Shown here one piece after another: positions 40,661-62,921 of a DNA stretch of 64,000 bases. This DNA is from Asanoa hainanensis. GTDB lineage: Bacteria; Actinomycetota; Actinomycetes; Mycobacteriales; Micromonosporaceae. Under the pieces are notes generated by a model. It searched no databases and was not told the DNA's origin. It saw only the letters and a list, made by a program, of their open reading frames with translations. The stretch spans positions 124,001-188,000 of the forward strand of contig NZ_FZPH01000009.1 in NCBI RefSeq assembly GCF_900188485.1, read 5' to 3'. The stretch's first letter is position 1, and the number at the start of each line of letters is the position of its first letter. The translations under genes were made by a program, and so were the position numbers.

Positions 40661-40695
40661 GGTCGTTTGATCCGTCGGCCGTCCGCGTACGTACC

Positions 40696-41433: not shown

Positions 41434-42167
41434 GCCGCGAGGAGCACTGGGACGTCGCGTCGTACGCGCTCGGCGTTCTCGACGAGGCCGACACCGAGCG
41501 GTTCGAGGAGCATCTCGCCACGTGTTGGGTCTGCGCCGGCGAGCTGGAGTCGTTCCTGCCGGTGGTGGACGCGCTCGGGGCGGTCAACGGCAACGACCTC
41601 GCGGTGACGGAGCAGGTCGACCGCGACGGCCGCCTGCTCGGCCGGATGCTGACCGCGGTCGGCGACGACCGCCGCCGGGCCCGCCGGCAGCGCGTGCTCA
41701 GCCTCGCGGCCGGCGTGGTGCTGATCGCGCTGGTGGGCGCGTTGGCGCTCTTCGCGGGCGCCAACTGGGTGGCCGAGCCGCAGGTGGCCGCCGGACCGCC
41801 ACCGTCCTCGTCGGCGCCGAAGCCCGACGTCGGCCCCGGCGAGCGGCACAGCGCGACCGACGCGAAGTCGGGTGTGCACGCCGAGGTCGCCGTCGACACG
41901 AAGCCCTTCGGCACCCGGATCTCGTTCGCGCTCAGCAACCTCGACGGGCCGGCGACCTGCCGGTTGGTCGCGCTGACCAAGGACGGCGCCGCCGAGGTGC
42001 TGTCCAGCTGGCAGGTGCCGCCGGGAGGCTACGGCACGCCGGCGCGACCGGACGCGCTGACGCTCCAGGCGGCCACCGCGTCGCCGCTCAAGGACCTGCA
42101 AGCCGTCGAGGTGCAGGTGCTCCAGCCCGACGGCGCGACCAGCCCGCTGGTCACCGTCCCCGTCTAG
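41430..42167 (+). CDS. Zinc-finger anti-sigma factor (RskA-like)
   Basis: A 245-aa single-pass membrane protein. The N-terminal cytoplasmic domain has the ZAS motif H28-x3-C32-x2-C35 in FEEHLATCWVCAGELE, which binds and restrains the partner sigma factor. One membrane helix (residues about 89-108, LSLAAGVVLIALVGALALF) leads to an RskA-type extracellular domain (SNLDGPATCRLVALTKDG). Release probably occurs by regulated proteolysis, as in related pairs. Its TAG lies in a CTAG shared with the stop of the convergent MmgE/PrpD gene. Confidence 0.9.
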   Translation: MSREEHWDVASYALGVLDEADTERFEEHLATCWVCAGELESFLPVVDALGAVNGNDLAVTEQVDRDGRLLGRMLTAVGDDRRRARRQRVLSLAAGVVLIALVGALALFAGANWVAEPQVAAGPPPSSSAPKPDVGPGERHSATDAKSGVHAEVAVDTKPFGTRISFALSNLDGPATCRLVALTKDGAAEVLSSWQVPPGGYGTPARPDALTLQAATASPLKDLQAVEVQVLQPDGATSPLVTVPV

Positions 42168-43519
42168 GGACAGAACCGGCCGAGCACCTCCGTGGCCACC
42201 GCCTGCAGTGTGTGGCCGCCGGCGGCGCTGTCGAGCAGGCCCGCCACGACGGCGTCCGCGGTGGCCGGCGTGAGCACGTCCTGTGCGTTGCGGCGGAACT
42301 TGGCCGCGACCTCGTCGTCCGGCAGCGGGTCGGACGGATTGCCGCGGGCGTTGCGGACCGACGCCGTTTCCGCCGAGCCGTCGCGCCAGCGCACCGTGAC
42401 CGTGGTCGGGCGTTCGTGGGGTAGGGCCGCGGTGTACGCCGGCTCCTCGCGCAGCCGCACCAGCGCGGCCAGTTCGCCCACCTCGGAGCGGGCCAGCCGG
42501 TCGGGCAGGAAGCCGGCCGCGGCGAGCTCCCCGTCGAGCGCGTACGTGGCCAGGCTGACCGGCACGGAGAACCGGGCGTGCAGGTCCGAGGCGACCCGCA
42601 CGGCCGACAGCGACGCGGCGAAGGCGAACGTGTCGACCTCGATCGCGGCCAGCCCGCCCCTCTCCGGCGCGCCCGCGACGGCCAGGCGGAACGCGTCCAG
42701 GGCCGGATGGATCCAACGCGCGCAGGCGTACGGCTTGAGGTAGCTGTCCGCCAGCCGCCAGCGCTCGCCCAGCCCGCCGGTCAGCTCCGATGTGGACAGA
42801 CCCGTGGTGACGAGGCCGTCGAGCAACTGGCTCAGCACCGTTGCCGAGCCGGCCACCCCGTCGGCGGCCCGTCCGGCGGCCGCGGCGCCGTAGTAGGCGC
42901 CGAGTCCCGTCCAGAGGTTGCGCACCGTGCCGCCGTGCATGGGCACGGCTAACGTCGCCGCCAGCGGCACCGAGCCGGCGAGCTCCACCGAGGTGGCGGT
43001 GAGCGCGGAGGAGAGGTCGTGCAGCAACGCGGTGGCGACGGCCGAAGCGATCGGACCGTGGATTCCGTGCGGGTGCAGGCCGGGCCGCAGCGTGGTGCCC
43101 ACGCCGAACCGCATTCCGACCTCGTTGGCGACCAGGAAGATCTCCAGCAGGCGGCGGTCGTCGAGGCCGCCGGCCGCGGCGTGCAGCAGGACCGGCAGGG
43201 AGTGCGGGGCCGGGTGCGCGGTCGGCACGGGCGGCAGGCGGTGGCCCTGCGGGTGGAACGAGCCGCCGGAGTCGGCGTCCAGCCAGGTGGCGGCCGTGCC
43301 GAGGGTGACCAGCCGGCCGAACGGGAGGTCGCGCGGCCCGGCCGGCTCCGCAGCGCGCAGGCTGTCGCCGAACGCCGTCACCTGCGGGTAGCGCAGGCCG
43401 CCGAGCAGCGCGCCCAGCGTGTCGAGCAGCAACCGGCCCGCGAAGGCGACGACCTCCGGCGGTGCGTCGTCGAGGCGGGCGTCGTGGGCGAACGCGGCGA
43501 TCCGCGCGGTGTCGATCAT
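42164..43519 (-). CDS. MmgE/PrpD family protein (copy 1)
   Basis: A 451-aa MmgE/PrpD protein. This family includes 2-methylcitrate dehydratase, aconitate decarboxylase and iminodisuccinate epimerase. Family-like stretches: LLLDTLGALLGG, TWLDADSGGSFHPQGHRLPP, GTTLRPGLHPHGIHG, and SYLKPYACARWIHPALDA, which supplies the conserved Lys/Cys/His region, then ARFSVPVSLA. It is the last gene of the leftward catabolic operon and overlaps the upstream LLM gene by 4 nt. ATG 43519. The reaction cannot be picked from sequence. Confidence 0.88.
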   Translation of the reverse strand: MIDTARIAAFAHDARLDDAPPEVVAFAGRLLLDTLGALLGGLRYPQVTAFGDSLRAAEPAGPRDLPFGRLVTLGTAATWLDADSGGSFHPQGHRLPPVPTAHPAPHSLPVLLHAAAGGLDDRRLLEIFLVANEVGMRFGVGTTLRPGLHPHGIHGPIASAVATALLHDLSSALTATSVELAGSVPLAATLAVPMHGGTVRNLWTGLGAYYGAAAAGRAADGVAGSATVLSQLLDGLVTTGLSTSELTGGLGERWRLADSYLKPYACARWIHPALDAFRLAVAGAPERGGLAAIEVDTFAFAASLSAVRVASDLHARFSVPVSLATYALDGELAAAGFLPDRLARSEVGELAALVRLREEPAYTAALPHERPTTVTVRWRDGSAETASVRNARGNPSDPLPDDEVAAKFRRNAQDVLTPATADAVVAGLLDSAAGGHTLQAVATEVLGRFCP

Positions 43520-44430
43520 GATTCCCCCATCCCGGTGCGGACGGCGGTCCCGAGCTCGTCGAGCCGGTCCCACACGCCGTCCAGGGCGCCGGCGAGCACG
43601 ACGCCGTCGACGCCGAGCGCGCGGAACTCGGCGAACCGCGCGGTGACCGCTGCCGGGTCGCCGGTGACCACGAATCGGTCCCGGACGAAGCGGTCGGCGC
43701 CGGCCGGCACCTCACCCCGGCGGGCGTCGGCGGTGCCGTGCCGCCGGTAGTCGTGTGCGTCGGCGACGGCGCTGACCGCCGGGCGCCGGTCGGCCGGCAC
43801 GTCGAACCAGTCCGGTGCCCGCACGAGCCGGGCCGCGCAGGAGCCGAGCACGGGTGCGGCGGCGTCGGGGTCGTCGGTCACGACCGCGCGGACGAACATC
43901 CAGACGGTGGCGTCCGGTCGCTCGGACCGGGCCAGCGCGACCGCCTTGCCGACGATCGCCGGGTCGGCGCCCGCGTCGACCAGCACGCCACCGAGCAGGG
44001 CCGCGGTCGACGCGATGGTGCGCGGCCCGGACGCGGCGCCGAGCACGACGGCCGACGGCGGCACCAACTCGCGCAGGGTGCGCAGGGACTCCTCGTACGC
44101 GCGCAGCGACGGCGGCGCCACCCCTTCGTTGCGCACCGAGCTCTCGCCCCGCCCGACCACCGTGAACACCCGGCCGGGATGGTGCCCGTCGAGGGTGCGC
44201 ACCGCGCCGGCGACCGTGGCCGGGTGGCGCAGGCCGAGGCTGAGCACGCACGGCCCGGCCAGCCGGGCGGTGGTGCCACCGAGCACGCGCTCGGTCTCCA
44301 CCAGGCAGTCCGGGAACAGCCGGGGACTGTCGGCCAGCGCGATGCCGTCCAGGCCTGCGGCCAGCGCCGTGCCCGCCAGCGCGACCGGGTCCGCGGTGCC
44401 GATCGGCCGGACGATGTTGAGCAGGATCAT
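43516..44430 (-). CDS. LLM-class flavin-dependent oxidoreductase
   Basis: A 304-aa protein of the luciferase-like (LLM) superfamily, an FMN or F420-dependent TIM barrel. Features: AGTALAAGLDGIALADSPRLFPD, LSLGLRHPATVAGAVRTLDGHHPGRVFTVVGRGESSVRN (split by family convention around RHPA and GRGESS) and SLRTLRELVP. It starts directly with the first strand (ILLNIVRPIG). It overlaps both neighbours by 4 nt. In catabolic pathways LLM enzymes hydroxylate ring or amine substrates or open lactams; the substrate here is unknown. Confidence 0.78.
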   Translation of the reverse strand: MILLNIVRPIGTADPVALAGTALAAGLDGIALADSPRLFPDCLVETERVLGGTTARLAGPCVLSLGLRHPATVAGAVRTLDGHHPGRVFTVVGRGESSVRNEGVAPPSLRAYEESLRTLRELVPPSAVVLGAASGPRTIASTAALLGGVLVDAGADPAIVGKAVALARSERPDATVWMFVRAVVTDDPDAAAPVLGSCAARLVRAPDWFDVPADRRPAVSAVADAHDYRRHGTADARRGEVPAGADRFVRDRFVVTGDPAAVTARFAEFRALGVDGVVLAGALDGVWDRLDELGTAVRTGMGES

Positions 44431-45008
44431 CGCAGCGCCCTGACGAGCTCCGCGACGTCCACATCGGACGGATCGTCGGACAGCAGGGAGACGGTGTGCG
44501 CCAGGGCGCCCGACATGCCGACGATGCCGGCGTCGCGGGCGCGCAGGGCGAGCCAGGCGGCGGCCGGGTCGTGCCCGGGTGCCACGCCCGGCGGCCCGAT
44601 CACCATCAGGCTGGCCGCGAGGTCGAGCAGCGCCGGCAGCTCGTCCTCCGGCACGCGGGCCAGCCGGGCGGCGCACACCGTGGCGGCCAGCACGCCGGTG
44701 CTCACGGTCGCCCGCGGTGCCGGGTACGCGGCACCGGCGGCGACGGCGTCGGACAGCTCGACGGCCGTCCGCCCGTGCGCGGCGCCGACCGCGAGCCCGA
44801 CCAGGGTCAGCGCGCTCTCCTGACCGAGGCCGGCCCGCGCGCAGCGCTCGCCGTTCCACAGCAGTGCGGTGTAGGTCTCCGCCCGGGTCCCGGTGCCGAT
44901 GAGCGGGAAGTCACCGTCCGGGGTGCCGACCCGGGCCGCCCACGCGGACAGGTCGCCGTCCGGAGCCGGCAGGGCGGCGAATGCGGCGAGCATCGTGCCG
45001 ACGGTCAT
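44427..45008 (-). CDS. Unrecognised 193-aa protein of the catabolic operon
   Basis: A 193-aa soluble, alanine-rich, mostly helical protein I do not recognise. Stretches such as YTALLWNGERCARAGLG, LVGLAVGAAHGRTAVEL, LPALLDLAASLMVIGPPG and DAGIVGMSGALAHTVSLL are loosely reminiscent of MmgE/PrpD helices, but the length is less than half of that family. It has three cysteines and no signal peptide or metal motif. Start and stop overlap both neighbours by 4 nt, so it is a real operon member, possibly an accessory subunit. Confidence 0.75.
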   Translation of the reverse strand: MTVGTMLAAFAALPAPDGDLSAWAARVGTPDGDFPLIGTGTRAETYTALLWNGERCARAGLGQESALTLVGLAVGAAHGRTAVELSDAVAAGAAYPAPRATVSTGVLAATVCAARLARVPEDELPALLDLAASLMVIGPPGVAPGHDPAAAWLALRARDAGIVGMSGALAHTVSLLSDDPSDVDVAELVRALR

Positions 45009-51858: not shown

Positions 51859-51873
51859 ATCCCTCAGTACGGT

Positions 51874-51890
51874 GTTTCAGCCAGCGGAAC
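51874..51890. promoter_or_regulatory. Candidate IclR operator, site 1
   Basis: GTTTCA-GCCAG-CGGAAC is a 17-bp imperfect palindrome; symmetric flanks extend it to 21 bases (GT...AC). It lies just upstream of the IclR-type gene and matches the arms and spacing of three other sites in the window (52017, 62806 and 62892). Confidence 0.6.
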
Positions 51891-51972
51891 ACGATTTCAA
51901 CACCGACCCGCTCGGGGGTCAACCCCTCAACCCGCCTCTGTGCTGCGTTGAAGAAGATTCTGCAACGGAGTC

Positions 51973-52001
51973 TTGACCCGTAACACGGGCAGTGCCAGAG
52001 T
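51973..52001 (+). promoter_or_regulatory. Putative promoter of the ABC importer operon
   Basis: TTGACC (51973-51978) and CAGAGT (51996-52001) are 17 bases apart, about 55 bases ahead of the substrate-binding protein start. The -10 is weak. Site 2 (52017-52033) lies just beyond the predicted start point, consistent with repression. Confidence 0.35.
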
Positions 52002-52016
52002 CAGCCTTCATGCGAC

Positions 52017-52033
52017 GTTCCGTGCGGCGGAAC
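52017..52033. promoter_or_regulatory. Candidate IclR operator, site 2
   Basis: GTTCCG-TGCGG-CGGAAC is a perfect 6-bp inverted repeat with a 5-base centre. It sits 23 bases before the ATG of the substrate-binding protein gene and has the same arms as the site at 62806. Confidence 0.65.
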
Positions 52034-52055
52034 ACTGTCACCCCCAGGAGCTGAC

Positions 52056-53300
52056 ATGAGGAAGACCTGGACCCTGAGCCTCGCCTTAGCCCTGCCGCTG
52101 GCGCTCGCCGCCTGCGGCGGGTCCGCGCCGGCCGGCACGACCAACGGCGGCGGCGGGCAGTCCGGCGGCACCATAAAGATCGGTTCCCTGCACCCGCTGA
52201 GCGGCTCGTCCGCGGCTGACGGGCAGCAGATGGACAACGGAGCCAAGCTGGCCGTGGAGGCCATCAACAACGCCGGCGGCATCAAGTCGCAGGGCGGCAA
52301 GAAGCTCGAGCTGGTCAGCGGCGACACCCAGGGCAAGCCCGAGGTCGGCCAGAGCGAGGCCCAGCGCCTCATCCAGGAGGGCGCGGTCGGCCTGGTCGGC
52401 ACCTACCAGAGTGCCGTCAGCGCCAACGTGTCCACCGTGGCCGAGCGCAACAAGGTTCCGTTCGTCATCGACGTCTCCAGCGCGGACTCGATCCTGGCGC
52501 AGGGCTACAAGAACACGTTCCGGGTGCAGCCCAGCTCCACCGTGCTCGGCACCGCCGGCGCGCAGTTCCTCGACCAGGTGGCCAAGGCGGCCGGCAAGCC
52601 GGTCAAGAAGGTCGCCGTCCTGCACGAGCAGGGCCCGTTCGGCACCGCGGTGCGGGACGCCTTCAAGGCCGAGGCGCAGAAGGCGGGCATCACGGTCGAC
52701 CCGGCCATCGCGTACGACGCCGCCAGCGTCTCCGACCTGACCACCCAGGTCACCCAGGTGAAGGCCAGCGGTGCCGACGTGCTGATGGTCGCCGGCTACT
52801 ACCGCGACGGCGTGCTGGCCGCGAAGGCCGTCGACACCGTCAAGCCGGCGCTCAACGCCGTCTACGGCGTCGCCAACGGTGCCTTCGACCTCCCGCAGTT
52901 CCCCAAGGAGGTCGGCGCCGCGGGTGAGGGCTACTTCGACGCCAACTACCACGCCGACATGACCAAGCCGGAGATGCAGGCGCTGGCCCAGCTCTACCAG
53001 TCGAAGTACAACGACGCGATCCGGACCGGCGCCGTCCTGGCGTACGACTCGGTGCGGGTCATCGCCGCCGCGCTGGAGAAGGCCGGCAGCGCCGAGCCGG
53101 CCAAGGTGCGGGACGCGATCGCCAGCGGCGAGGTGCCGACGCTGATCGCCGGCCCCGGCACGATCAAGTTCGGCCCGACGGGCGAGAACCTGAACGCCAC
53201 GCCGATCCTGATGCAGGTCCAGGGTGGCGCCCCCAAGCAGGTGTTCCCGGCCGACAAGGCGGAGGCACAGCCCACCTACCCCGCGTTCAAGAGCCAGTGA
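52056..53300 (+). CDS. livK: ABC importer substrate-binding lipoprotein (Leu/Ile/Val-type)
   Basis: A 414-aa lipoprotein with a signal sequence and lipobox ALAAC (lipidated C20), followed by a type I periplasmic-binding fold: KIGSLHPLSGSSAADGQQMDNG, VGLVGTYQSAVSANVSTVAE and VAVLHEQGPFGTAVRDAF. It captures the substrate outside the membrane for the four downstream components. CAGGAG lies at good spacing before ATG 52056. The family transports branched amino acids, amides, urea or aromatic and organic acids; genes downstream favour an organic acid or amide. The gene symbol is family-level. Confidence 0.92.
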   Translation: MRKTWTLSLALALPLALAACGGSAPAGTTNGGGGQSGGTIKIGSLHPLSGSSAADGQQMDNGAKLAVEAINNAGGIKSQGGKKLELVSGDTQGKPEVGQSEAQRLIQEGAVGLVGTYQSAVSANVSTVAERNKVPFVIDVSSADSILAQGYKNTFRVQPSSTVLGTAGAQFLDQVAKAAGKPVKKVAVLHEQGPFGTAVRDAFKAEAQKAGITVDPAIAYDAASVSDLTTQVTQVKASGADVLMVAGYYRDGVLAAKAVDTVKPALNAVYGVANGAFDLPQFPKEVGAAGEGYFDANYHADMTKPEMQALAQLYQSKYNDAIRTGAVLAYDSVRVIAAALEKAGSAEPAKVRDAIASGEVPTLIAGPGTIKFGPTGENLNATPILMQVQGGAPKQVFPADKAEAQPTYPAFKSQ

Positions 53301-54331
53301 CGTCGGCATCCGACCAGGACCACGTCGCCGCCGGAAACGGCGGCGGCGTGGCCGCCCTGGACCCCGACGAGGTGCGCGCGTCCCCGGCGCGCACCGTGCC
53401 CTGGCTGCGCATCGCGGTCATCGTCGCGCTGGTCGTCGTCGCGATCGTGCTCGCCTACGTCCGCGCCGGCAGCAGCGTGGTCGTGGTGCAGGCGGTCACC
53501 ACCGGCATCCTCATCGGTGGCGTCTACGGCCTGGTCGCGATGGGCCTGACGCTGATCTTCGGCGTCCTCGACATCGTCAACTTCGCGCACGGCAGCTTCC
53601 TGGCGCTGGCCCTGTTCCTCACCTTCGGGCTGACCCAGGCGGGCCTGCACGTCTACCTGGCGTTGGCGATCAGCGTGCCCGCCATGTTCCTGCTCGGCGT
53701 GCTGGTGCAGCGTGGCATCCTGGCCGGCGCGATGGGCAAGCCGCTGGAGAACCAGCTGCTGATCACGCTGGGCATCTCGCTGATCATCGAGAACGCGCTG
53801 CTGCTGTTCTTCGGCGCCAACCCCCGCTCGGTCGCGCTGTCCGGCGACCGCGGCGTGCCGATCTTCGAGGCCGTGGCCAACCTGTCCCGGATCCTCGCGT
53901 TCGTCGGGGCGCTGCTCCTGGCCGGCCTGCTCTACCTGCTGCTGCAGCGCACCCGGCTGGGCACCGCGATCCGCGCCGTGGCTGCCAACGACACCGGCGC
54001 GCAGCTCGTCGGCATCGACACCCGGGTGATCTACGCGGTCACCTTCGCGCTCGGCACGGCCTGCGCCGGCGCCGCCGGCACGCTGGTGGCGCCACTGGTC
54101 ACCATCGAGCCGACGACCGGCTCGCTGTTCAACATCGTGGCCTTCGTGGTCGTCGTGCTGGGCGGCATGGGCAACGTGGTCGGCGCGCTCGTCGGCGGCC
54201 TGATCATCGGGCTGGCCGAACAGCTCGGCGGCATCTACCTGCCGGGCCAGTCGCCGCTGCTGTCGGTCTTCATCGTCTTCGTGCTCGTGCTGTTCCTGCG
54301 ACCGCAGGGACTCTTCCGGAGGTCGGCATGA
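53297..54331 (+). CDS. livH: Branched-chain-type ABC permease, LivH subunit
   Basis: A 344-aa permease with about eight helices. Family motifs: VTTGILIGGVYGLVAMGLTLIFGVLDIVNFAHGSF, split here as GGVYGLVAMGLTLIFGV and LDIVNFAHGSF, then AVAANDTGAQLVGID and FVVVVLGGMGNVVGALVGG. A 35-residue soluble leader precedes the first helix. GTG 53297 overlaps the livK stop by 4 nt. Pairs with LivM to form the translocation pore. Confidence 0.92.
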   Translation: MTSASDQDHVAAGNGGGVAALDPDEVRASPARTVPWLRIAVIVALVVVAIVLAYVRAGSSVVVVQAVTTGILIGGVYGLVAMGLTLIFGVLDIVNFAHGSFLALALFLTFGLTQAGLHVYLALAISVPAMFLLGVLVQRGILAGAMGKPLENQLLITLGISLIIENALLLFFGANPRSVALSGDRGVPIFEAVANLSRILAFVGALLLAGLLYLLLQRTRLGTAIRAVAANDTGAQLVGIDTRVIYAVTFALGTACAGAAGTLVAPLVTIEPTTGSLFNIVAFVVVVLGGMGNVVGALVGGLIIGLAEQLGGIYLPGQSPLLSVFIVFVLVLFLRPQGLFRRSA

Positions 54332-55374
54332 CGACCACCACCGCACCGGCCGCGGAGACGGCGGCGACCAAGCCGCTGCCCCGCCAGCCCTGGAACCGGC
54401 ACCTGCTGGCGATCGCGGTGCTGACCGTGCTGCTGATCCCGCTGCCGCTGATCCTGCCGCCGGCTCAGGCGTCGGTCGCCGTCCGCGTGCTGATCTTCGC
54501 GTTGATGAGCATCGGCTGGAACATGATGAGCGGCTTCGGCGGCATGTTCAGCTTCGGTCACGCGGCCTACTTCGGCATCGGTGCGTACGCCGGCGGCTAT
54601 CTGCTCGTCGAGCACGACGTCTCGCCCTGGATCGGGATGCTCGTCGGCATGGCGGTCGCCGCGGCCTTCGCCACGCTGATCGGCTTCCTCGCGCTGCGCT
54701 ACAAGCTGCGCGGCGCCTACTTCGCGCTGGCGACCTTCGCCTTCGCGGAGATGCTGCGGCTCTGGGCGACCAACAGCGAGTTCGTCAACCGCGCCGTCGG
54801 CTACCACGTGCCGCTGCGTCCCGAGAGCTCGTGGTGGTGGCTGCAGTTCGAGCCGTCCTCGGCGAACTACTTCTGGATCGCGCTCGGCCTCACCGTGATC
54901 GCGCTCGTGGTCAGCGTCCAGTTCGTCCGGTCCCGGGCGGGTCAATTCGCCAAGGCCGCCCGCGACGACGAGGACGCGGCCGCCGCCGTCGGCATCCCGG
55001 TGATGCGCTACAAGCTGCTGACGATGGCGCTCTCCGCCGCGATCACCGCCGTCGCCGGCGCCTTCTACGTGCAGTACTTCCTGTTCATCGACCCCGACCT
55101 GGCGTTCGGGTCCAGCGTGTCGATCCAGGCGATCCTGCCCGCGGTGATCGGCGGCGTGGCGACCATCTGGGGCCCGGTGATCGGAGCCGTGGTGATGGGC
55201 CCGCTCAACGACGTCACGGCGACGATCCTGCGCAACCCACCGCCGGCGCTGGAGTTCCTGCAGGGCCGCGGTGGCCTCGACGTGATCGTCTACGGCGTAC
55301 TGCTGATCATTATCGTCCTGCTCCTGCCGCAAGGCATCTACGGAGCGCTGCGCAAGAGGTGGTCCCGGCGATGA
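54328..55374 (+). CDS. livM: Branched-chain-type ABC permease, LivM subunit
   Basis: A 348-aa permease with about nine helices. Motifs: IGWNMMSGFGGMFSFGHAAYFGIGAYAGG, given here as GFGGMFSFGHAAYFGIGAYA, LRGAYFALATFAFAEMLR, KAARDDEDAAAAVGIPVMRYK and GVATIWGPVIGAVVMG. ATG 54328 overlaps livH by 4 nt and the stop overlaps livG by 4 nt. No unusual insertion. Confidence 0.92.
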   Translation: MTTTTAPAAETAATKPLPRQPWNRHLLAIAVLTVLLIPLPLILPPAQASVAVRVLIFALMSIGWNMMSGFGGMFSFGHAAYFGIGAYAGGYLLVEHDVSPWIGMLVGMAVAAAFATLIGFLALRYKLRGAYFALATFAFAEMLRLWATNSEFVNRAVGYHVPLRPESSWWWLQFEPSSANYFWIALGLTVIALVVSVQFVRSRAGQFAKAARDDEDAAAAVGIPVMRYKLLTMALSAAITAVAGAFYVQYFLFIDPDLAFGSSVSIQAILPAVIGGVATIWGPVIGAVVMGPLNDVTATILRNPPPALEFLQGRGGLDVIVYGVLLIIIVLLLPQGIYGALRKRWSRR

Positions 55375-56102
55375 CCCTGTTGCGGGTGGAGAACCTGGCC
55401 AAGTCCTTCAAAGGGCTGCGGGCGGTCGACGACGTCAGCTTCGAGGTCACCGAGGGCAGCATCCTCGGCGTGATCGGGCCCAACGGCGCCGGCAAGACCA
55501 CCATGTTCAACCTGGTCGCCGGCGCCCTGCGGCCCGACACCGGCCGGGTGCACCTGGGCGGCAAGGAGATCACCGGGCACGCGCCGCACCGGATCACCGC
55601 CGCCGGCATGACCCGGACGTTCCAGCTCATGCGGCCGTTCTACTCGATGACCGTGCTGGAGAACGTCACGGTCGCCGTGCTGGCCGGCGGCGCCGCCAAG
55701 CGCACCGCCCGGGAAGCCGCCGCCGAGGTCATCGCGCGCGTCGGCCTGGACCGGTGGCGCGACTCGCCGACCGAGGGCCTGCCCACCGCCGCGCTCAAGC
55801 GCCTCGAGCTGGCCCGGGCGCTGGCCAGCAAGCCGCGGGTGCTGCTCCTCGACGAGGTGCTCGCCGGGCTCGTGCCCGCCGAGCGGGCGCCAGTGATGGA
55901 ACTGCTGGAGCGGCTGCGCACCGAGGACGGCGTGACGCTGGTGTTCGTCGAGCACATCATGGCGGCCGTCATGCGGCTGTCGGACTCGGTGCTGGTGCTC
56001 GACCTGGGCCGGGTGCTCACCTCGGGCGCGCCGGAGGCGGTGACCCGGGACCCCCGGGTCATCGAGGCCTACCTCGGGGAGGACCCGCATGCTCAAGCTT
56101 GA
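55371..56102 (+). CDS. livG: ABC importer ATPase, LivG subunit
   Basis: A 243-aa ATPase with Walker A GPNGAGKT (36-43), Q-loop region GMTRTFQLMRPFYSMTVLENV, Walker B VLLLDEVLAGL and H-loop FVEHIM. The ABC signature is degenerate: the expected LSGGQ position reads LPTAALKRLELARAL. Divergent signatures occur in this subfamily, so activity is not excluded. ATG 55371. It overlaps livF by 14 nt. Confidence 0.9.
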   Translation: MTLLRVENLAKSFKGLRAVDDVSFEVTEGSILGVIGPNGAGKTTMFNLVAGALRPDTGRVHLGGKEITGHAPHRITAAGMTRTFQLMRPFYSMTVLENVTVAVLAGGAAKRTAREAAAEVIARVGLDRWRDSPTEGLPTAALKRLELARALASKPRVLLLDEVLAGLVPAERAPVMELLERLRTEDGVTLVFVEHIMAAVMRLSDSVLVLDLGRVLTSGAPEAVTRDPRVIEAYLGEDPHAQA

Positions 56103-56790
56103 GGGGCTCAGCGCCGGCTACCACGGCCTCCAGATCCTGCACGAGCTCGACCTGCGGGTCGACGAGGGCGAGATCGTGGCGATCGTCGGCGCGAACGGCG
56201 CGGGCAAGACCACCACGCTGAAGACCGTCTCCGGGCTGGTCAAGCCGACCGCGGGCACGATCACCTTCGACGGGAAACGCGCCGACGGGGTACGCCCGAG
56301 CGAGCTCGTCTCCCGCGGCCTGCTGCACGTGCCCGAGGGGCGGGCGTTGTTCGGCCCGCTCAGCGTCGAGGAGAACCTGCGGATGGGCGGGTGGACCCGC
56401 GGCCGCAAGCCGTTGGACGCGCCGCTGCGCGAGGTCTTCGAGCTGTTCCCGATCCTCGCGGAGCGCCGCACCCAGGCCGCCGAGACGCTCAGCGGCGGCC
56501 AGCAGCAGATGCTCGCGATCGGCAGGGCACTGATGGCGGCGCCGAAGCTGCTGCTGCTCGACGAGCCGTCCACCGGCCTCTCGCCGAAGCTGACCTGGAC
56601 GGTGCTCGACGCGGTCAAGGCCATCCGGGACAAGGGCGTCTCGGTGCTGCTGGTCGAGCAGAACGCCGCGCACGCGCTCAACCTGGCCGACCGGGCGTAC
56701 GTGCTGGAGAGCGGCAGCCTGGTCCTCGACGGGCCGGGACCCGAGCTGGCCCGCGACGACCGGGTCCGGGCCGCGTACCTGGGGCTGTGA
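56089..56790 (+). CDS. livF: ABC importer ATPase, LivF subunit
   Basis: A 233-aa ATPase with Walker A GANGAGKT (34-41), canonical signature LSGGQQQMLAIGRALM, Walker B LLLLDEPSTGLSPK and H-loop VLLVEQNAAHAL. Together with LivG it gives one complete and one altered signature per heterodimer. The final A of its TGA stop is the first base of the MmgE/PrpD start, linking import to catabolism in one transcript. Confidence 0.92.
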   Translation: MLKLEGLSAGYHGLQILHELDLRVDEGEIVAIVGANGAGKTTTLKTVSGLVKPTAGTITFDGKRADGVRPSELVSRGLLHVPEGRALFGPLSVEENLRMGGWTRGRKPLDAPLREVFELFPILAERRTQAAETLSGGQQQMLAIGRALMAAPKLLLLDEPSTGLSPKLTWTVLDAVKAIRDKGVSVLLVEQNAAHALNLADRAYVLESGSLVLDGPGPELARDDRVRAAYLGL

Positions 56791-58115
56791 TGTCTACTGT
56801 GGAGGCCGTCGCGCGGCTCGGTGACTGGGTCGCCGGGCTGCGCTGGGCCGACGTTCCCGCGTCCGCGCGGGACCGGCTCGGTCTGGTGCTGCTCGACTCG
56901 CTCGGTGTGACGGTCGTCGGTGCGCGTCAACCCGAGCAGCGCGCGCTGGCCGCGGCGTGGCGGCCGTCCGCCGGGCCGGCGCCGCTGATCGGCGGCGGTC
57001 TTCGCACGACGGTGGAGGCGGCCGCCTGGCTCAACGCGACCGCCCTCTGCCGGCTCGAGCTCGACGAGGGACACAAGTACGCCAAGGGCCACCCGGCCGC
57101 GCACGGGCTGCCGGCGGTGCTGGCGCTGGCCGCGGACCTCGGCGCGTCCGGCCCGGCGACCCTGACCGCCCTGCTGGCGGCGTACGAGGTGGCCGCCCGG
57201 TTCGGCCAGGCGACCTCGCTGCGGGCGGGGATGCACCCGCACGGAAGCTGGGGCGTCGCCGGCGCGGCGGCCGGCGCCGCGCACCTGCTGGGGCTGCCCG
57301 GGGATCGGGTGGCCGCCGCCATCGACGCCGGCGCCGGGCTGCCGGTCGCCGGCCACTTCGCCAGCGCGCTGGACGGCAACCCCGTCCGGGACGCCTGGCT
57401 CGGAGCGTCCAATGTGTCCGGTCTCGCGGCGGCCCGGATGGCGGTGGCCGGTGTCGCTCGCAATACCGGCACGCCTTCCCTTTCGCTGGGGGACGTGCTC
57501 GGCAGCTTCGATCCCGCGCCGTTGACCGACGAGCTCGGATCTCGATGGGATGTCTCGCTGGGCTACTTCAAGCGCCATGCTTCCTGTTCGTTCACCCACC
57601 CGGCCGCCGACGCGGCGTTGACGATGGGCGACCTGGACCTCGGCGCCGTCGAGGAGATCCTGGTCGAGACCCACTCGCTGGGCGGCGGCCTGAGTCGCAC
57701 GACCTGGGACAGCCGGCTGGGCGCGTTGTTCTCGACGCCGTTCGTCGTCGCCGCCGCGCTCGTGCACGGCACCGTCGACCCCTTTGTGTCCGCCGACGAG
57801 CCGCGCGCAAACCCGCGGATCCGCGAGCTGGCCGCGAAGGTCACGCTGCGGGTGGCGCCCGACCTCGACGCCCGACTGCCCGACGAGCGGGCGGCCCGGG
57901 TGACCGTGCGCGTGGCCGGCGCCGAACCGCGTGTCGTCGAGGTGCCGAACCCGATCGGCGACGCCGCCTACCACCCGATGGCCGAGGACGACGTGCTCGC
58001 CCTGCTCGGCCGCCTGCTCGACCCGGGCACCGTCGCCACCCTGCACGAGGTGGCGACCGGCCTGCCCGACAGCCCCGACGTCGGCCCGGCGCTCCGGCGG
58101 CTCGCCGACATCTGA
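56790..58115 (+). CDS. MmgE/PrpD family protein (copy 4)
   Basis: A 441-aa MmgE/PrpD protein in the importer operon. Features: LLDSLGVTVVGARQPEQ, LDEGHKYAKGHPAAHGLPA, LRAGMHPHGSWGVAGAAAG, GYFKRHASCSFTHPAADAAL (Lys, Cys, His region) and IGDAAYHPMAEDDV. It differs from the canonical family in lacking the DFDDTH-type segment (LELDEGHKYAKG instead), like copies 1 and 2. ATG 56790 overlaps livF by one base. Substrate unknown. Confidence 0.88.
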   Translation: MSTVEAVARLGDWVAGLRWADVPASARDRLGLVLLDSLGVTVVGARQPEQRALAAAWRPSAGPAPLIGGGLRTTVEAAAWLNATALCRLELDEGHKYAKGHPAAHGLPAVLALAADLGASGPATLTALLAAYEVAARFGQATSLRAGMHPHGSWGVAGAAAGAAHLLGLPGDRVAAAIDAGAGLPVAGHFASALDGNPVRDAWLGASNVSGLAAARMAVAGVARNTGTPSLSLGDVLGSFDPAPLTDELGSRWDVSLGYFKRHASCSFTHPAADAALTMGDLDLGAVEEILVETHSLGGGLSRTTWDSRLGALFSTPFVVAAALVHGTVDPFVSADEPRANPRIRELAAKVTLRVAPDLDARLPDERAARVTVRVAGAEPRVVEVPNPIGDAAYHPMAEDDVLALLGRLLDPGTVATLHEVATGLPDSPDVGPALRRLADI

Positions 58116-58127
58116 AAGGAACGTGCT

Positions 58128-58760
58128 GTGCGGATCTACGCCGTGACCCCGATCCACGTCGACACCGACGAGCTGGCCCGCCGGCAGGCGCGGTACGCCG
58201 CGCTGTCGCCGCCGGGTGTCGAGGTGCTGCTGCACGACATCGGGCCTGCCGCGCCACGCGCGTTGGACACGGCTGAACAGGTGCGCGAGAGCGAAACGCT
58301 GGTGATGGCGGCGTTGCGCGACGCGCAGGACGGCTTCGACGCGCTGCTGCCCGACTGCGTCCTCGATCCCGGCGTCGCCGACCTCGCCGGCACCCTTCCG
58401 GTCCCGGTCTTCGGGCTGCTGCGGCTCAGCCTCGGCTGGTCGGTGCTGACCGGGCGCAAGTCCGCGGCGGTGGCCCGCAACAAGGCGATCGCCGACGAGA
58501 TCGTGGCCCGGGCCGCCGTCTACGGCTGGTCCGCCGAGCTGCTCGGCGTCGAGGTGCTCGACCTCGACGTGCACGCGATCGCCGACGACGCCCGCTGGGC
58601 GGACGCGCTCGGCGGCGCGGTCGGCACGCTGGCCTCGGGCGGGGCCCGCGACGTCATCAACGGCTGCTCCGCCGTCGACGTGTCCGACGAGCTCGACCTG
58701 CCCGCCCGGGTGGTCGACCCGACCGCGCTCGCGCTGCGGCTGATCGGGGCCGGGCGATGA
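58128..58760 (+). CDS. Asp/Glu/hydantoin racemase-like protein
   Basis: A 210-aa protein of the Asp/Glu/hydantoin racemase superfamily. The two catalytic cysteines are visible: C77 in LLPDCVLDPGVADLAG and C180 in DVINGCSAVD, each in the family context. AVTPIHVDTDELARR at the N-terminus and VFGLLRLSLGWSVL fit the fold. The superfamily also includes maleate isomerase and arylmalonate decarboxylase, the latter with one cysteine. GTG 58128 has GAAAGGA upstream. With the dihydropyrimidinase-like gene two loci downstream, hydantoin-type racemisation is one option. Confidence 0.83.
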   Translation: MRIYAVTPIHVDTDELARRQARYAALSPPGVEVLLHDIGPAAPRALDTAEQVRESETLVMAALRDAQDGFDALLPDCVLDPGVADLAGTLPVPVFGLLRLSLGWSVLTGRKSAAVARNKAIADEIVARAAVYGWSAELLGVEVLDLDVHAIADDARWADALGGAVGTLASGGARDVINGCSAVDVSDELDLPARVVDPTALALRLIGAGR

Positions 58761-60124
58761 CCCTCGACCTGGTCGTCGCCGGCGCCGGCGGCGGCCTCGT
58801 GGCCGCGCTGCGGGCCGCCCAGCTGGGCCTGCGGGTACTGGTGGTCGAGGCCAGCGAGCACTTCCGCCGGGGCAACAACACCTCGATGTCCACGGCGATG
58901 ATCCCCGGCGCCGGCTCCCGGTGGCAGCGCGCCGCGGGCATCGACGACTCGCCGGAGCTGTTCGCCGCCGACGTCGCCCGCAAGACGCACGGCGAGGGGG
59001 ACCAGCGCCTCGCCCGCACCCTCGGTGACGTCAGCGCACCGCTCGTCGAGTGGCTGGCCGACGACGTCGGGCTCGGCCTCTCGCTGGTCACCGACTTCCA
59101 CTACCCGGGCCACTCGGTCGACCGTTGCCACACCGTCGAAGGCCGGCACGGCACCGTGCTGCTGGACCACCTGGTCTCGCGGGTCGAGCAAGCCGGCATC
59201 GACGTGCTGGTGCCGGCGCGCCTCGTCGACGTTCTGGTCGCCGCCGACGGGGCCGTGCGGGCCGCGGTGGTCGAGCGCCCGGACGGCTCCCGGGAGGAGA
59301 TCGAGACCCGGGCGGTGCTGCTGGCCACCAACGGGTACGGCGCCGACCGGGCGCTGGTCGCCGAGCACCTGCCGGAGATCGCCAAGGCGGTCTACCACGG
59401 CAGCGAGACCTCCCGGGGCGACGCGCTGCGGATCGGCGCCGCGCTGGGCGCGTCGTCGGCGTACCTCGACGCGTACCAGGGGCACGCCGCCCTCGCCGCC
59501 CGCTCGGCGACGCTGGTCGGCTGGGCAACCGTGATGCACGGCGGGTTCGTGCTCGACACCACCGGCCGCCGCTTCGGCGACGAGACCACGGGATATTCCG
59601 AGTACGCCGCCGCCCTCGCCGCCCGCCCGGACGCGTTCGGCTGGCTGGTGCTCGACGAGCGGATCCACGACGCCTGCCTCGCCTTTACGGACTTCCGGCA
59701 GAGCGTGGAGTCCGGCGCACTGCTGACCGCCCCCTCCGCTGCTGAACTCGCGTCGCTGGCCGGACTTCCGGTCGAGGCGGTCGCCGCGGAGCTGGCCGAG
59801 ACCGCCGCCGTCGCGCGCGGCGAACAGGCCGACCGGTTCGGCCGCACCTTCTTCGAAGCGCCGCTGGCGCCGCCGTACCGTGTGGCTCGGGTGGTTCCGG
59901 CGCTCTTCCACACCCAGGGCGGCCTGGTGGTCGACGAGCATGCCCGGGTGCTGCGCCCGGACGGCGCGCCGATCCCCGGGCTCTACGCCTCCGGCGGTGC
60001 CGCGTCGGGCATCTCCGGGCACGGCGCGGCCGGTTACCTCGCGGGCAACGGACTGCTGCCCGCCCTCGGCCTCGCGTACCTAGCCGCCAACCACGCGGCC
60101 GCAACCACGGAAGGACCCGCATGA
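58757..60124 (+). CDS. FAD-dependent fumarate-reductase-like dehydrogenase
   Basis: A 455-aa FAD_binding_2 flavoprotein related to fumarate reductase, tricarballylate dehydrogenase and ketosteroid dehydrogenases. The N-terminal fold has AGAGGGLVAALRAAQLGL, then FRRGNNTSMSTAM, and the C-terminal FAD segment reads HTQGGLVVDEHARVL and GLYASGGAASGISGHG followed by GYLAGNGLLPALGLAYLA. It probably oxidises or reduces a C-C bond next to a carboxylate. The start overlaps the racemase stop by 4 nt, and its own stop overlaps the next gene. Confidence 0.87.
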   Translation: MTLDLVVAGAGGGLVAALRAAQLGLRVLVVEASEHFRRGNNTSMSTAMIPGAGSRWQRAAGIDDSPELFAADVARKTHGEGDQRLARTLGDVSAPLVEWLADDVGLGLSLVTDFHYPGHSVDRCHTVEGRHGTVLLDHLVSRVEQAGIDVLVPARLVDVLVAADGAVRAAVVERPDGSREEIETRAVLLATNGYGADRALVAEHLPEIAKAVYHGSETSRGDALRIGAALGASSAYLDAYQGHAALAARSATLVGWATVMHGGFVLDTTGRRFGDETTGYSEYAAALAARPDAFGWLVLDERIHDACLAFTDFRQSVESGALLTAPSAAELASLAGLPVEAVAAELAETAAVARGEQADRFGRTFFEAPLAPPYRVARVVPALFHTQGGLVVDEHARVLRPDGAPIPGLYASGGAASGISGHGAAGYLAGNGLLPALGLAYLAANHAAATTEGPA

Positions 60125-61590
60125 AACCTCTAGAGACCCTGATCAAGAACGTCACCGTGGTACGGCCCGACGCCGGCTCTCCGGACGGCGACCAGCTCGA
60201 CATCGGCATCGCCGGCGGCAAGGTCGTCCGGCTGGAGGCCGACATCCCCGCGTCCGACGCCGAGGTGGTCGTCGACGGTCGCGGGCGGCTCGCGTACCCG
60301 GGTGCGGTCGACGCGCACCAGCACTGGGGCATCTACAACCCGCTGGACGCCGACACCGCCACCGAGAGCCGGGCCAGCGCGCAGGGCGGCGTGACGACCG
60401 GCCTGACCTACATGCGCACCGGGCAGTACTACCTCAACCGGGGCGGCTCGTACGCGGACTTCTTCCCGCACGTGCTCTCGGCCTCCGAGGGGCGCTCGTA
60501 CATCGACTACGGGTTCCACCTCGCGCCGATGAGCAAGGAGCACATCGGCGAGATCCCGTCGATCGTGGAGAGATTCGGCGTCACCTCGTTCAAGATCTTC
60601 ATGTTCTACGGCAGCCACGGCCTGCACGGGCGCTCGTCCGACCAGAGCTCGTTCCTGATGATCCCGCCGGACGAGCGCTACGACCTGGCCCACTTCGAGT
60701 TCGTGATGCGCGGCGTGCAGGAGGCGCGGGAGAAGCTGGTCGACGCGGCGCCGCACGTGTCGCTGTCGCTGCACTGCGAGACCGCCGAGATCATGACCGC
60801 GTACACGAAGCTGGTCGAGGAGGACGGCTCGCTGTCGGGCCTGGCCGCCTACAGCGCGTCGCGGCCGCCGCACTCGGAAGGGCTCGCGGTCACCATCGCC
60901 GCGTTCCTGGCCGACGAGACCGGGCTGCCGAACATCAACCTGCTGCACCTCTCGTCGCGCAAGGCGCTCAAGGCCGCGATGGCCATGGCGCGGACCTTCC
61001 CGCACGTCGACTTCCGCCGTGAGGTGACGATCGGCCACCTGCTGGCGTCGGTCGACACGGCGCACGGCCTCGGTGGCAAGGTGAACCCGCCGCTGCGCCC
61101 GCAGGAGGACGTCGAGGCGCTCTGGGAGCACGTGCTCGCCGGTGACGTCGACTGGGTGGTCAGCGACCACGCGTGCTGCAAGGACGAGCAGAAGTTCGGC
61201 GACCCGCGAGACGACATCTTCGCCGCCAAGTCCGGCTTCGGCGGTGCCGAATATCTGTTGCCCGGCCTGGTCTCCGAGGGACGCAAGCGGGGCCTGTCGC
61301 ACCAGCGGATCGCCCAGCTCGTCGCGCTCAACCCGGCCCGCCGCTACGGCCTGCCCGGCAAGGGGACCATCGGGGTCGGCTTCGACGCGGACCTGTGCCT
61401 GGTGGAGAACACGTCGTGGACCGTGCACGCGGCCGACTCGGAGTCCACTCAGGAGTACACGCCGTTCGAGGGTTTCGAGCTCGGCGCCCGGGTGACCGAC
61501 ACGTGGGTCCGGGGCCAGCGGGTGCTGGAGAGCGGCAACGTGGTCGGCGCACCGTCCGGTCGCTACGTTCACCGTCCTTACCAGGGGTGA
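60121..61590 (+). CDS. Dihydropyrimidinase/hydantoinase-like amidohydrolase
   Basis: A 489-aa binuclear amidohydrolase. Metal ligands are intact: HxH at H66/H68 in GAVDAHQHWG, carbamylated lysine K158 in TSFKIFMFYG, histidines in SLHCETAEI and NLLHLSSR, and aspartate in VVSDHACC. The family opens cyclic amides such as hydantoins and dihydropyrimidines, or hydrolyses allantoin. Length matches (about 460-490 aa). ATG 60121 overlaps the FAD gene; the stop overlaps the CoA transferase start. The closeness to a racemase suggests a cyclic amide intermediate. Confidence 0.9.
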   Translation: MKPLETLIKNVTVVRPDAGSPDGDQLDIGIAGGKVVRLEADIPASDAEVVVDGRGRLAYPGAVDAHQHWGIYNPLDADTATESRASAQGGVTTGLTYMRTGQYYLNRGGSYADFFPHVLSASEGRSYIDYGFHLAPMSKEHIGEIPSIVERFGVTSFKIFMFYGSHGLHGRSSDQSSFLMIPPDERYDLAHFEFVMRGVQEAREKLVDAAPHVSLSLHCETAEIMTAYTKLVEEDGSLSGLAAYSASRPPHSEGLAVTIAAFLADETGLPNINLLHLSSRKALKAAMAMARTFPHVDFRREVTIGHLLASVDTAHGLGGKVNPPLRPQEDVEALWEHVLAGDVDWVVSDHACCKDEQKFGDPRDDIFAAKSGFGGAEYLLPGLVSEGRKRGLSHQRIAQLVALNPARRYGLPGKGTIGVGFDADLCLVENTSWTVHAADSESTQEYTPFEGFELGARVTDTWVRGQRVLESGNVVGAPSGRYVHRPYQG

Positions 61591-62795
61591 GCGTGTCTAC
61601 TGCTGACGGTCCGCTGGCGGGACTGCGGGTGCTCGATCTTTCGACGATCCTCGCGGGCCCGCTGGTGGCACAGGTCCTGGGAGACTTCGGCGCGGAGGTC
61701 ATCAAGATCGAGCACCCGGCCCGTGGCGACGGCATGCGCGGGCACGGGTTGGCCAAGGACGACCAGCCACTGTGGTGGAAGATGGTGGCCCGCAACAAGC
61801 GGACCGTCGGGCTCTACCTCGGCGACCCCTCGGGCGCTGCGGTCTTCCGCAAGCTGGCGGCGACCGCCGACGTGGTGATCGAGAACTTCCGGCCCGGCAC
61901 GTTGGAGCGCTGGGGCCTCGGCTACGACGTGCTCTCCGCCGACAACCCCGGGCTGATCCTGTTGCGGGTGACCGGCTTCGGGCAGTCCGGCCCGTACGCG
62001 TCGCGGCCGGCGTTCGGCACGCTGGTCGAGGCGATGAGTGGTTTCGCGCATCTCACCGGCGAGCCGGACGGCCCGCCGACGCTTCCCGCGTTCGGGCTGG
62101 CCGACTCGATCGCGGGAATGGCCGGGGCGGCGGCGGTCTCGATGGCGCTCTTCCAGCGGGAGAAGGACGGTCACGGGCAGGAGATCGACCTCGACCTGCT
62201 CAGCCCCATCATGACCGCCGTCGGCCCCGGTGTGATCTACGCCGACCAGCTCGGCGTCGACCAGCAGCGCACCGGGAACCGGTCGGCCAACAACGCGCCG
62301 CGCAACACGTACCGCACCTCTGACGGTCACTGGGTGGCCATCTCGACGAGCGCCGACAGCATCGCCCGCCGCGTGCTGACTCTGGTCGGCCATCCGGAGG
62401 TGCTTTCCGAGCCTTGGTTCGCGACCGGGAGGCAGCGGGCGGCCCATGCCGACCTGCTCGACGGGTACGTGGGCTCGTGGATCGCCGCGCGGACGCGTGA
62501 CGAGGTGCTGCGGGCCTTCGAGGAGGCGGGTGCCGCGGTCGGTCCGGTCTACAAGCCGAGCGAGCTGCTCGACGACCCGCAGGTGCGGGCGATGGAGCTG
62601 GTGACCACGGTGGACGATCCGGACCTGGGCGAGATGCGGATGCAGAACCTGCTCTGGCGGATGGGGCGCACGCCGGGCCGGATCCGGTTCACCGGGCGGG
62701 CGTTGGGCGCCGACACCGACGCGGTGCTCGGCGACGAGCTCGGGCTGTCCGCCGCGGAGCTCGCGGACCTGCGGGAGCGTGGCGTGGCGGGCTAG
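61587..62795 (+). CDS. CaiB/BaiF-type CoA transferase
   Basis: A 402-aa family III CoA transferase. Motifs: LRVLDLSTILAGPLVAQVLGDFGAEVIKIEHP (given here as LDLSTILAGPLVAQVLGDFG), VVIENFRPGTLERWG, and NAPRNTYRTSDGHWVAI. The catalytic aspartate normally found after GPY..RP.(Y/F)D appears replaced by glycine (G144 in RPAFGTLVEAMSGF), a feature I recall in a large CaiB subgroup, so the mechanism may differ. GTG 61587 overlaps the hydantoinase-like stop by 4 nt; GTG 61593 is possible. Last gene of the importer operon. Confidence 0.88.
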   Translation: MSVSTADGPLAGLRVLDLSTILAGPLVAQVLGDFGAEVIKIEHPARGDGMRGHGLAKDDQPLWWKMVARNKRTVGLYLGDPSGAAVFRKLAATADVVIENFRPGTLERWGLGYDVLSADNPGLILLRVTGFGQSGPYASRPAFGTLVEAMSGFAHLTGEPDGPPTLPAFGLADSIAGMAGAAAVSMALFQREKDGHGQEIDLDLLSPIMTAVGPGVIYADQLGVDQQRTGNRSANNAPRNTYRTSDGHWVAISTSADSIARRVLTLVGHPEVLSEPWFATGRQRAAHADLLDGYVGSWIAARTRDEVLRAFEEAGAAVGPVYKPSELLDDPQVRAMELVTTVDDPDLGEMRMQNLLWRMGRTPGRIRFTGRALGADTDAVLGDELGLSAAELADLRERGVAG

Positions 62796-62805: not shown

Positions 62806-62822
62806 GTTCCGCTGGGCGGAAC
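62806..62822. promoter_or_regulatory. Candidate IclR operator, site 3
   Basis: GTTCCG-CTGGG-CGGAAC (or GTTCCGC-TGG-GCGGAAC, a perfect 7-bp inverted repeat) lies 31 bases before the -10/-35 of the esterase promoter. A partial copy, GGTTCCGCT, starts ten bases earlier at 62795. Confidence 0.65.
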
Positions 62823-62891: not shown

Positions 62892-62908
62892 GTTCCGTTC
62901 AGCGAAAC
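62892..62908. promoter_or_regulatory. Candidate IclR operator, site 4
   Basis: GTTCCG-TTCAG-CGAAAC is an imperfect copy of the 17-bp palindrome with one mismatch, located in the 5' leader of the esterase gene, four bases before its ribosome binding site. Confidence 0.5.
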
Positions 62909-62921
62909 GATGGAGGCCATC

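Follow-up and report, generated by a model that had tools for sequence, protein, structure and literature searches.

Which compound do the genes of this locus consume, and do they act as one system? The locus lies in a 64,000-nucleotide stretch of the Asanoa hainanensis genome (contig NZ_FZPH01000009.1, positions 124,001 to 188,000), here called the window, and comprises 21 close-packed genes at window positions 42164-62795. Eleven are on the minus strand, an IclR-family regulator gene included (51858 to 42164), and ten are on the plus strand (52056-62795). We number them g1 to g11 and h1 to h10, respectively, outward from the 197-base intergenic region (51859-52055) between the IclR gene (g1) and the LivK gene (h1), from which the two arms diverge; most adjacent genes overlap by 1-14 bases. 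The gene set was defined from gene starts and stops, guanine-plus-cytosine content by codon position, and Pfam scans of the 64-kb window. By Pfam, it encodes a LivKHMGF importer, an Asp/Glu-racemase family protein, a FAD_binding_2 enzyme, an amidohydrolase, a CoA_transf_3 protein, an HpcH/HpaI lyase, a cyclase, a Bac_luciferase protein, and four MmgE/PrpD proteins. This analysis bears out an earlier note on this DNA, which had described eleven leftward and ten rightward overlapping genes diverging at IclR and had named the same families, importer and four MmgE/PrpD proteins included.

The gene order, its conservation in other genomes, a palindrome common to the promoters, and the retention of catalytic residues in the core enzymes are established. 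The gene set probably serves to import a small ring compound, open it, and break its carbon skeleton down to central metabolites. The best explanation, which we hold tentatively, is that it is an IclR-controlled catabolic regulon that opens a chiral cyclic ureide or imide and then cleaves the product by a coenzyme A (CoA)-dependent retro-Claisen reaction.

Conservation of the cluster and its palindrome

A relative of g4, the first MmgE/PrpD gene, was found at E 1e-80 or better in 60 of 250 genomes of the family, the window's own included, and four genomes besides the window's carry a g4 match of >90% identity. Among the same-genus genomes listed, two of six have a g4 match (the window's own and G052). 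We compared the neighborhoods in 10 of the 59 other family genomes with a g4 relative. In the four with the >90% g4 match (G052, G232, G246, and G096), the full set of 21 genes is present in unchanged order, with protein identities of 66-98%; the remaining six hold the core only, and in part. Given this same-order recurrence in four other genomes, the 21-gene arrangement is not a chance run. The h9 of Asanoa ishikariensis DSM 44718 (NZ_FNQB01000004.1) is 97% identical to that of the window. Much of the left arm is rare: of 394 class-level genomes, counting the window's own, two match g9 and three match g7.

Named genomes were also scanned with an alignment of four homologs of h9, the hydantoinase-like amidohydrolase; this gave at least 590 candidate stretches, at least 380 of them confirmed, and the best 80 loci were kept. 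The counts that follow are tblastn best-hit labels above 60 bits within ~10 kb of h9, which is present by design; they are labels rather than orthologs, lowered by contig ends and raised by remote paralogs. The CoA-transferase was labeled in 68 of the 80 loci, IclR in 65, CitE in 58, the cyclase and the first MmgE/PrpD protein in 51 each, the flavin adenine dinucleotide (FAD) enzyme in 47, and the racemase in 29. Lower counts were obtained for LivH (26), LivF (25), LivK (24), LivM (24), and the third MmgE/PrpD protein (24), followed by g7 (3), g8 (2), g10 (1), g11 (1), and g5 and g6 (0 each). The core genes cluster together across actinomycete genera, and h9 relatives outside Asanoa, at 65-82% identity, sit with core genes, h9 being the query. 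The common core is IclR, the CaiB-type CoA-transferase, the CitE-like lyase, the cyclase, MmgE/PrpD, and the hydantoinase-like amidohydrolase; the optional parts are the FAD enzyme, the racemase, a second MmgE, and the Liv importer, and the left arm is the rare part. Conserved order and a common palindrome support the earlier proposal of a single catabolic system under IclR. The earlier note had also treated the cluster as one unit, but the 80 loci divide it into core, optional, and rare parts. The core is common in actinomycetes, as judged from the confirmed h9 relatives and from the core neighbors in most of the 80 loci. Transporters differ by locus (Liv, an MFS carrier in 16 loci, an NMT1/TauA-like system, or other ABC permeases), as do accessory hydrolases. 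One core module (L096) is on a contig titled as a Bifidobacterium breve metagenome-assembled genome, a label that looks doubtful.

The core is also found on a plasmid. A search of 72,556 plasmid records at E 1e-60 matched h9 in three records and g4 in seven; g9 had no plasmid match. On the Rhodococcus gordoniae plasmid pDND3A (L132 and L136), the neighbors of the core are HyuA/HyuB, an amidase, and five genes annotated as CoA ester lyase, acyl-CoA dehydrogenase, MmgE/PrpD, CoA transferase, and MaoC dehydratase. Plasmid pDF02 (L134) has a partial g4 match only, beside an annotated amidase.

Four palindromes lie in the window: one upstream of g1, one upstream of LivK, and two upstream of a tannase-family gene that follows h10. 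Across the 80 loci, the relaxed form GTTYC-N7-GRAAC occurs at 110 sites in 51 loci, compared with 4 sites for a relaxed control. The exact form GTTCC-N7-GGAAC accounts for 52 sites, compared with 0-9 for each of 29 other half-site arrangements and 0-4 for other spacings from 3 to 11. When a site no more than 30 bases from a gene end is scored as outside the gene, 105 of the 110 sites are outside called genes, mostly adjoining module genes, and 2 are inside them; the other 3 could not be placed, as they are in loci where no genes were called (L096 and L109). Few genes were called in some others of the 80 loci. The palindromes are often paired, most commonly at a distance of 155-156 bases, and many of the 80 loci have one palindrome-bearing promoter with h9 on one side and the lower genes on the other. 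Throughout the 8.64-Mb genome, GTTCCG-N5-CGGAAC is present only at window positions 52017 and 62806; a looser palindrome has 21 sites, 4 of them in the window, compared with 5 for a reversed control. This operator-like palindrome, shared by several promoters, would mark an IclR regulon and is its putative operator. It was not found in L133, L135, or L137. In L100, a gene pair encoding an SDR protein and a nitrilase-type amidase-like protein sits behind a palindrome. Two Actinomadura loci (L069 at 12825 and L080 at 15619) have a site that separates a DUF4437 cupin gene from a second FAD_binding_2 gene; the two genes are possible extra regulon members.

The tannase-family gene lies past the limits that the earlier note gave to the cluster and has its own palindrome pair. 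Relatives directly follow h10 in G246 and G096, with two palindromes each. Judged from its promoter, the gene probably belongs to the regulon in this genome and is not a general feature.

Residues of the encoded enzymes and a proposed pathway

The enzymes expected to act on a ring retain their active-site residues. In h9, H66, H68, K158, H218, H276, and D349 are invariant in four homologs, and we take them to be the hydantoinase-type metal-ligand pattern. None of the 25 top NCBIfam models shown for h9 reaches its cut-off; the best are allantoinases (TIGR03178, 201.5 of 357.85 bits), and the D-hydantoinase model TIGR02033 gives 165.7 of 393.25 bits. The cyclase g3 keeps its metal motif, with H73, T76, H77, D79, and H83 near-invariant in 49 sequences. 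In h7, C77 and C180 are kept in 26 sequences. Its predicted model (pLDDT, 95.4) has allantoin racemases as the top Foldseek matches (TM, 0.83; E 6e-11), followed by hydantoin racemase and then fungal OpaE and aspartate racemases, all at no more than 18% identity; by sequence, the match to a hydantoin racemase is weak (E 0.0064). The presence of racemase-like and hydantoinase-like proteins together points to a chiral cyclic ureide or imide, and a five-membered ring of this class is the most likely substrate.

The CoA enzymes are conserved in the same way. In the CitE-like lyase g2, R61, E112, and D139, presumably the key lyase residues, are near-invariant in 44 sequences, and in h10, D173, which we take to be the catalytic aspartate of class III CoA-transferases, is near-invariant in 65 sequences. 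Pfam identified no MaoC hydratase among the 21 genes; MaoC was not searched for elsewhere in the genome. A CaiB-type transferase and a CitE-like lyase without MaoC suggest that the acid carries a hydroxyl group when it is loaded onto CoA, either from the start or through the action of MmgE or the FAD enzyme.

All four MmgE_PrpD_N matches of the whole 8.64-Mb genome fall within this cluster. The nearest Protein Data Bank (PDB) chains to g4 are a Bacillus subtilis IRG1-like protein and IDS epimerase; aligned with the latter, H89, D92, H103, H160, K210, and K275 are near-invariant in 51 sequences. The protein keeps the conserved dicarboxylate-binding His/acidic/Lys set of the superfamily, and we infer its match to the residue numbers of PMC12290011. 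According to passages of that paper, known MmgE/PrpD enzymes act on 1,4-dicarboxylates, one member from itaconate clusters being a methylsuccinate isomerase, and most homologs are uncharacterized. The other three proteins (g5, h6, and g11) form a separate clade (support of 99/96 in a 15-row tree) and retain H103, H160, and K275. Against the PrpD model of the 2-methylcitrate cycle, g4 scores best, at 46.6 of 950 bits, and h6 scores 25.8 of 950. A single weak profile match aligns g9 with the MmgE N-domain (hhalign probability, 56; collinear over 151 columns), so g9 may, weakly, be a degenerate fifth MmgE-like N-domain; its AlphaFold model (pLDDT, 41) is too poor for structure search.

A pathway can be proposed from these assignments, with the order of its steps inferred. 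Outside the cell, an exported tannase-type esterase would hydrolyze an ester and release a small acid, which the Liv importer would bring in. The racemase-like h7 would invert the chiral ring carbon, after which h9 and g3 would open the ring by hydrolysis and split one more amide or lactone bond to give a substituted 1,4-dicarboxylate. This acid would be epimerized, hydrated, or dehydrated by g4, and its saturation altered by the FAD enzyme h8 when the starting compound needs it. The CaiB protein h10 would then load it onto CoA for retro-Claisen cleavage by g2 to acetyl-CoA and a 2-oxo acid. The rare left-arm genes may fit the core for additional substrates or stereoisomers. A fuller version, which we consider somewhat unlikely, is that this is a new actinomycete route in which cyclic ureides or imides are opened and their carbon burned through a CoA-transferase and CitE-type retro-Claisen cleavage, with MmgE/PrpD proteins as stereo-editors. 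Asanoa-type hosts would start with the extracellular tannase-type esterase, using ester-bound plant nitrogen rings as food, and three MmgE/PrpD proteins would have an undescribed active-site type, perhaps with g9 as a catalytically dead fifth subunit.

Several observations weigh against the preferred explanation of ring opening followed by CoA-dependent cleavage. At the enzyme level, Pfam identified no N-carbamoylase among the 21 genes, an enzyme that the classical hydantoin route requires. When h8 is aligned to 1qo8, G279/Y280 and approximately Y427 occupy the positions of the two fumarate-reductase arginines, which we assume to have catalytic and carboxylate-binding roles; Y280 and Y427 are near-invariant in 43 sequences, and both arginines are missing from h8. 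The H89 equivalent is absent from three of the four MmgE proteins (g5, h6, and g11). Among the 80 loci, h7 relatives occur in just 29, and 29 loci have no palindrome; none was found in L129, a Mycobacterium metagenome-assembled contig with much of the cluster. In L133 (Burkholderia arboris) and L135 (Streptantibioticus), CaiB, CitE, and MmgE genes stand beside a cyclase, with no h9 match in the fetched stretch, so the lower pathway may not need the nitrogen ring. The pDND3A context does not hold as a general rule, being nearly absent from the 80 loci (HyuA, 0; HyuB, 0; amidase, 2; acyl-CoA dehydrogenase, 5; MaoC, 1). Finally, the tannase-family gene is present in one of the 80 loci (L045, from Asanoa); its match in G052 is fragmented over different frames, with no palindrome found there, and the stretch after h10 in G232 has no match.

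Alternative explanations and known systems

The differences in transporters and accessory hydrolases from locus to locus, and the two loci without h9, would also fit at least two separate pathways under one regulator, an upper one for rings or ureides and a lower one for branched dicarboxylates, with different feed compounds per host. We regard this as unlikely, given that h9 and the lower genes share a palindrome-bearing promoter in many of the 80 loci, all of them h9-selected.

A tricarballylate/itaconate-type free-acid pathway, as the earlier note had proposed, is more doubtful still. It would involve FAD-dependent desaturation, isomerization or decarboxylation by MmgE, CoA transfer, and citramalyl-CoA-like cleavage. 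As described in passages of PMC12290011, the itaconate/methylsuccinate cluster consists of ict, ich, ccl, and mcd plus an MmgE/PrpD isomerase that acts on a free 1,4-dicarboxylate. A CoA-transferase, a CitE-like lyase, and an MmgE/PrpD protein are common to that cluster and ours. The five-gene set next to the core on pDND3A has the same gene kinds, and L089 carries relatives of that set's MmgE (53%) and acyl-CoA dehydrogenase (69%). In contrast, neither a MaoC hydratase nor an acyl-CoA dehydrogenase is among the 21 genes, which include a hydantoinase-like amidohydrolase, a cyclase, a racemase-like protein, and a FAD_binding_2 enzyme that set them apart from the described cluster. Scores fall well short of the cut-offs for TcuA (h8 against NF006130, 136.4 of 369 bits; against TIGR02485, 91.7 of 372.55) and for RipC/Ccl (g2 against NF038242, 170.8 of 375), and h8 lacks both arginines. 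The free-acid route also leaves h9, g3, and h7 unexplained, although h9 relatives accompany the core genes. The earlier interpretation is supported in part: the IclR system has support, as do CoA activation by CaiB with cleavage by the CitE-like enzyme (key residues kept) and possible ring opening by the hydantoinase-like enzyme and cyclase (metal ligands and motif kept, racemase-like h7 model), whereas the tricarballylate/itaconate scheme as such is not supported.

In a ureide pathway, an allantoin-like compound would be degraded to glyoxylate, which the CitE-like enzyme would condense with acetyl-CoA before CaiB releases malate. The allantoin-racemase-like model of h7, the allantoinase models that head the h9 list, and the top NCBIfam model of g1, BhcR (161 bits against a cut-off of 350), which we assume to be linked to glyoxylate, are all in line with this. 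Yet an over-cut-off allantoinase (527 bits) and an allantoicase are encoded apart from the cluster, on contig C11 (84870-87142), while h9 stays at about 200 bits against 358, and MmgE and the FAD enzyme are unaccounted for; we consider such a pathway very improbable. Identification of the cluster with the allantoin pathway itself was rejected because the genome's true allantoinase and allantoicase genes are elsewhere. Auxin-type oxindole catabolism, in which an opened oxindole-acetate would yield an arylmalate or arylsuccinate for CoA transfer and lyase cleavage to isatinate, with an isatin-hydrolase-like cyclase, has compatible citramalyl-CoA-type chemistry and isatin hydrolases among the PDB relatives of g3 but scarcely any likelihood, as the best of these (E 2e-11) is not the top g3 match, the 21 genes include no ring hydroxylase, except if the FAD or LLM enzyme acts as one, and published passages on the iac and iad loci describe other enzymes.

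The preferred ring-opening reading has partial parallels in known systems. Hydantoin utilization involves a racemase, a hydantoinase, and a carbamoylase. Racemase-like and hydantoinase-like proteins are likewise found here, but the 21 genes lack a carbamoylase, genes for CoA-dependent cleavage are added, and h9 is far under the hydantoinase cut-off. The allantoin pathway comprises allantoinase, allantoin racemase, and an IclR-type regulator; the cluster resembles it in the h7 fold, the wider family of h9, and its IclR-family regulator and differs in that the genome's over-cut-off allantoinase and its allantoicase lie outside. In cyclic imide degradation, a cyclic amidohydrolase opens the ring to the half-amide of a dicarboxylate, and by analogy a cyclic-amidohydrolase ring opening is proposed here; no gene set for imide degradation was found in this analysis. 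The anaerobic indoleacetate (iaa) pathway combines hydantoinase-like ring opening with a class III CoA-transferase, as would this cluster, but it uses another hydantoinase family and a mutase where CitE-type cleavage is proposed here. Published abstracts place imidase in the cyclic amidohydrolase family, and the iaa pathway is named in a passage of PMC9613470. The cluster is of a CoA-dependent dicarboxylate catabolic kind outside the itaconate, tricarballylate, methylcitrate, hydantoin, and allantoin pathways, because for each of these a defining feature was tested and not found.

In the open-access literature we found no description of the cluster; its enzyme families are each known, save the orphans g7 and g9, and neither their combination nor the palindrome nor the spread was found in print there. 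Several MmgE/PrpD homologs become testable because the module is conserved and has a defined operator-like site, variable transporters, and kept catalytic residues. Identification of the substrate would show at once what MmgE/PrpD, PF04199 cyclase, CitE-like, and dihydroorotase-like proteins do, and the palindrome offers a simple reporter for an inducer search.

Feature coordinates and flanking genes

Table 1. Genes and palindromes of the cluster, in window coordinates (aa, amino acids)
Feature	Coordinates	Strand	Basis
g1, IclR-family regulator, 260 aa	51076..51858	-	Pfam IclR_C and HTH_IclR
g2, CitE/HpcH-like CoA-ester lyase, 274 aa	50255..51079	-	PF03328
g3, cyclase (PF04199) metal hydrolase, 279 aa	49419..50258	-	Pfam
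g4, MmgE/PrpD no. 1, core type, 465 aa	48025..49422	-	Pfam
g5, MmgE/PrpD no. 2, separate clade, altered active site, 430 aa	46736..48028	-	Pfam, alignment, tree
g6, DUF3891 protein, 291 aa	45864..46739	-	PF13030, 132 bits
g7, weakly PNPOx-like protein, 169 aa	45355..45864	-	PF01243, 18.6 bits
g8, EthD-like small protein, 117 aa	45005..45358	-	PF07110, 20.4 bits, below cut-off of 22
g9, orphan, 193 aa	44427..45008	-	No meaningful Pfam match
g10, LLM-class (Bac_luciferase) flavin or F420 enzyme, 304 aa	43516..44430	-	PF00296, 57 bits
g11, MmgE/PrpD no. 4, altered active site, 451 aa	42164..43519	-	Pfam, alignment, tree
h1, LivK-type binding protein, 414 aa	52056..53300	+	PF13458
h2, LivH permease	53297..54331	+	PF02653
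h3, LivM permease	54328..55374	+	PF02653
h4, LivG ATPase	55371..56102	+	PF00005 and PF12399
h5, LivF ATPase	56089..56790	+	PF00005
h6, MmgE/PrpD no. 3, altered active site, 441 aa	56790..58115	+	Pfam, alignment, tree
h7, allantoin/hydantoin-racemase-like two-cysteine protein, 210 aa	58128..58760	+	PF01177
h8, FAD_binding_2 oxidoreductase, kin of flavocytochrome c fumarate reductases, 455 aa	58757..60124	+	Pfam
h9, hydantoinase/allantoinase-like amidohydrolase, 489 aa	60121..61590	+	Pfam, NCBIfam
h10, CaiB-type (class III) CoA-transferase, 402 aa	61587..62795	+	PF02515, 394 bits
Tannase/feruloyl-esterase family protein, 538 aa, hydrophobic N-terminus	62910..64000, on into L131:411-2027	+	PF07519, 343 bits
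Palindrome GTTTC-N7-GGAAC, upstream of g1	51874..51890	.	Pattern scan
Palindrome GTTCCG-N5-CGGAAC, upstream of LivK	52017..52033	.	Pattern scan
Palindrome GTTCCG-N5-CGGAAC, upstream of tannase-family gene	62806..62822	.	Pattern scan
Palindrome GTTCC-N7-GAAAC, second upstream of tannase-family gene	62892..62908	.	Pattern scan

Two of the left-arm genes were compared with further models and relatives. A g7 relative in L099 matches PF01243 at 32.3 bits, above the cut-off of 28.1, and g10 scores under the cut-offs of the F420-type NCBIfam models. At the left end of the cluster, the stop of the minus-strand g11 at 42164 meets a plus-strand zf-HC2 gene (41430-42167), which itself follows a sigma-70-type gene. 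This pair (39346-42167), an extracytoplasmic function (ECF)-like sigma gene and then an anti-sigma-like gene, is convergent with the cluster. Farther left, at 35725-37754, are two adjoining VWA-domain genes, of which the second also encodes a BatA domain.

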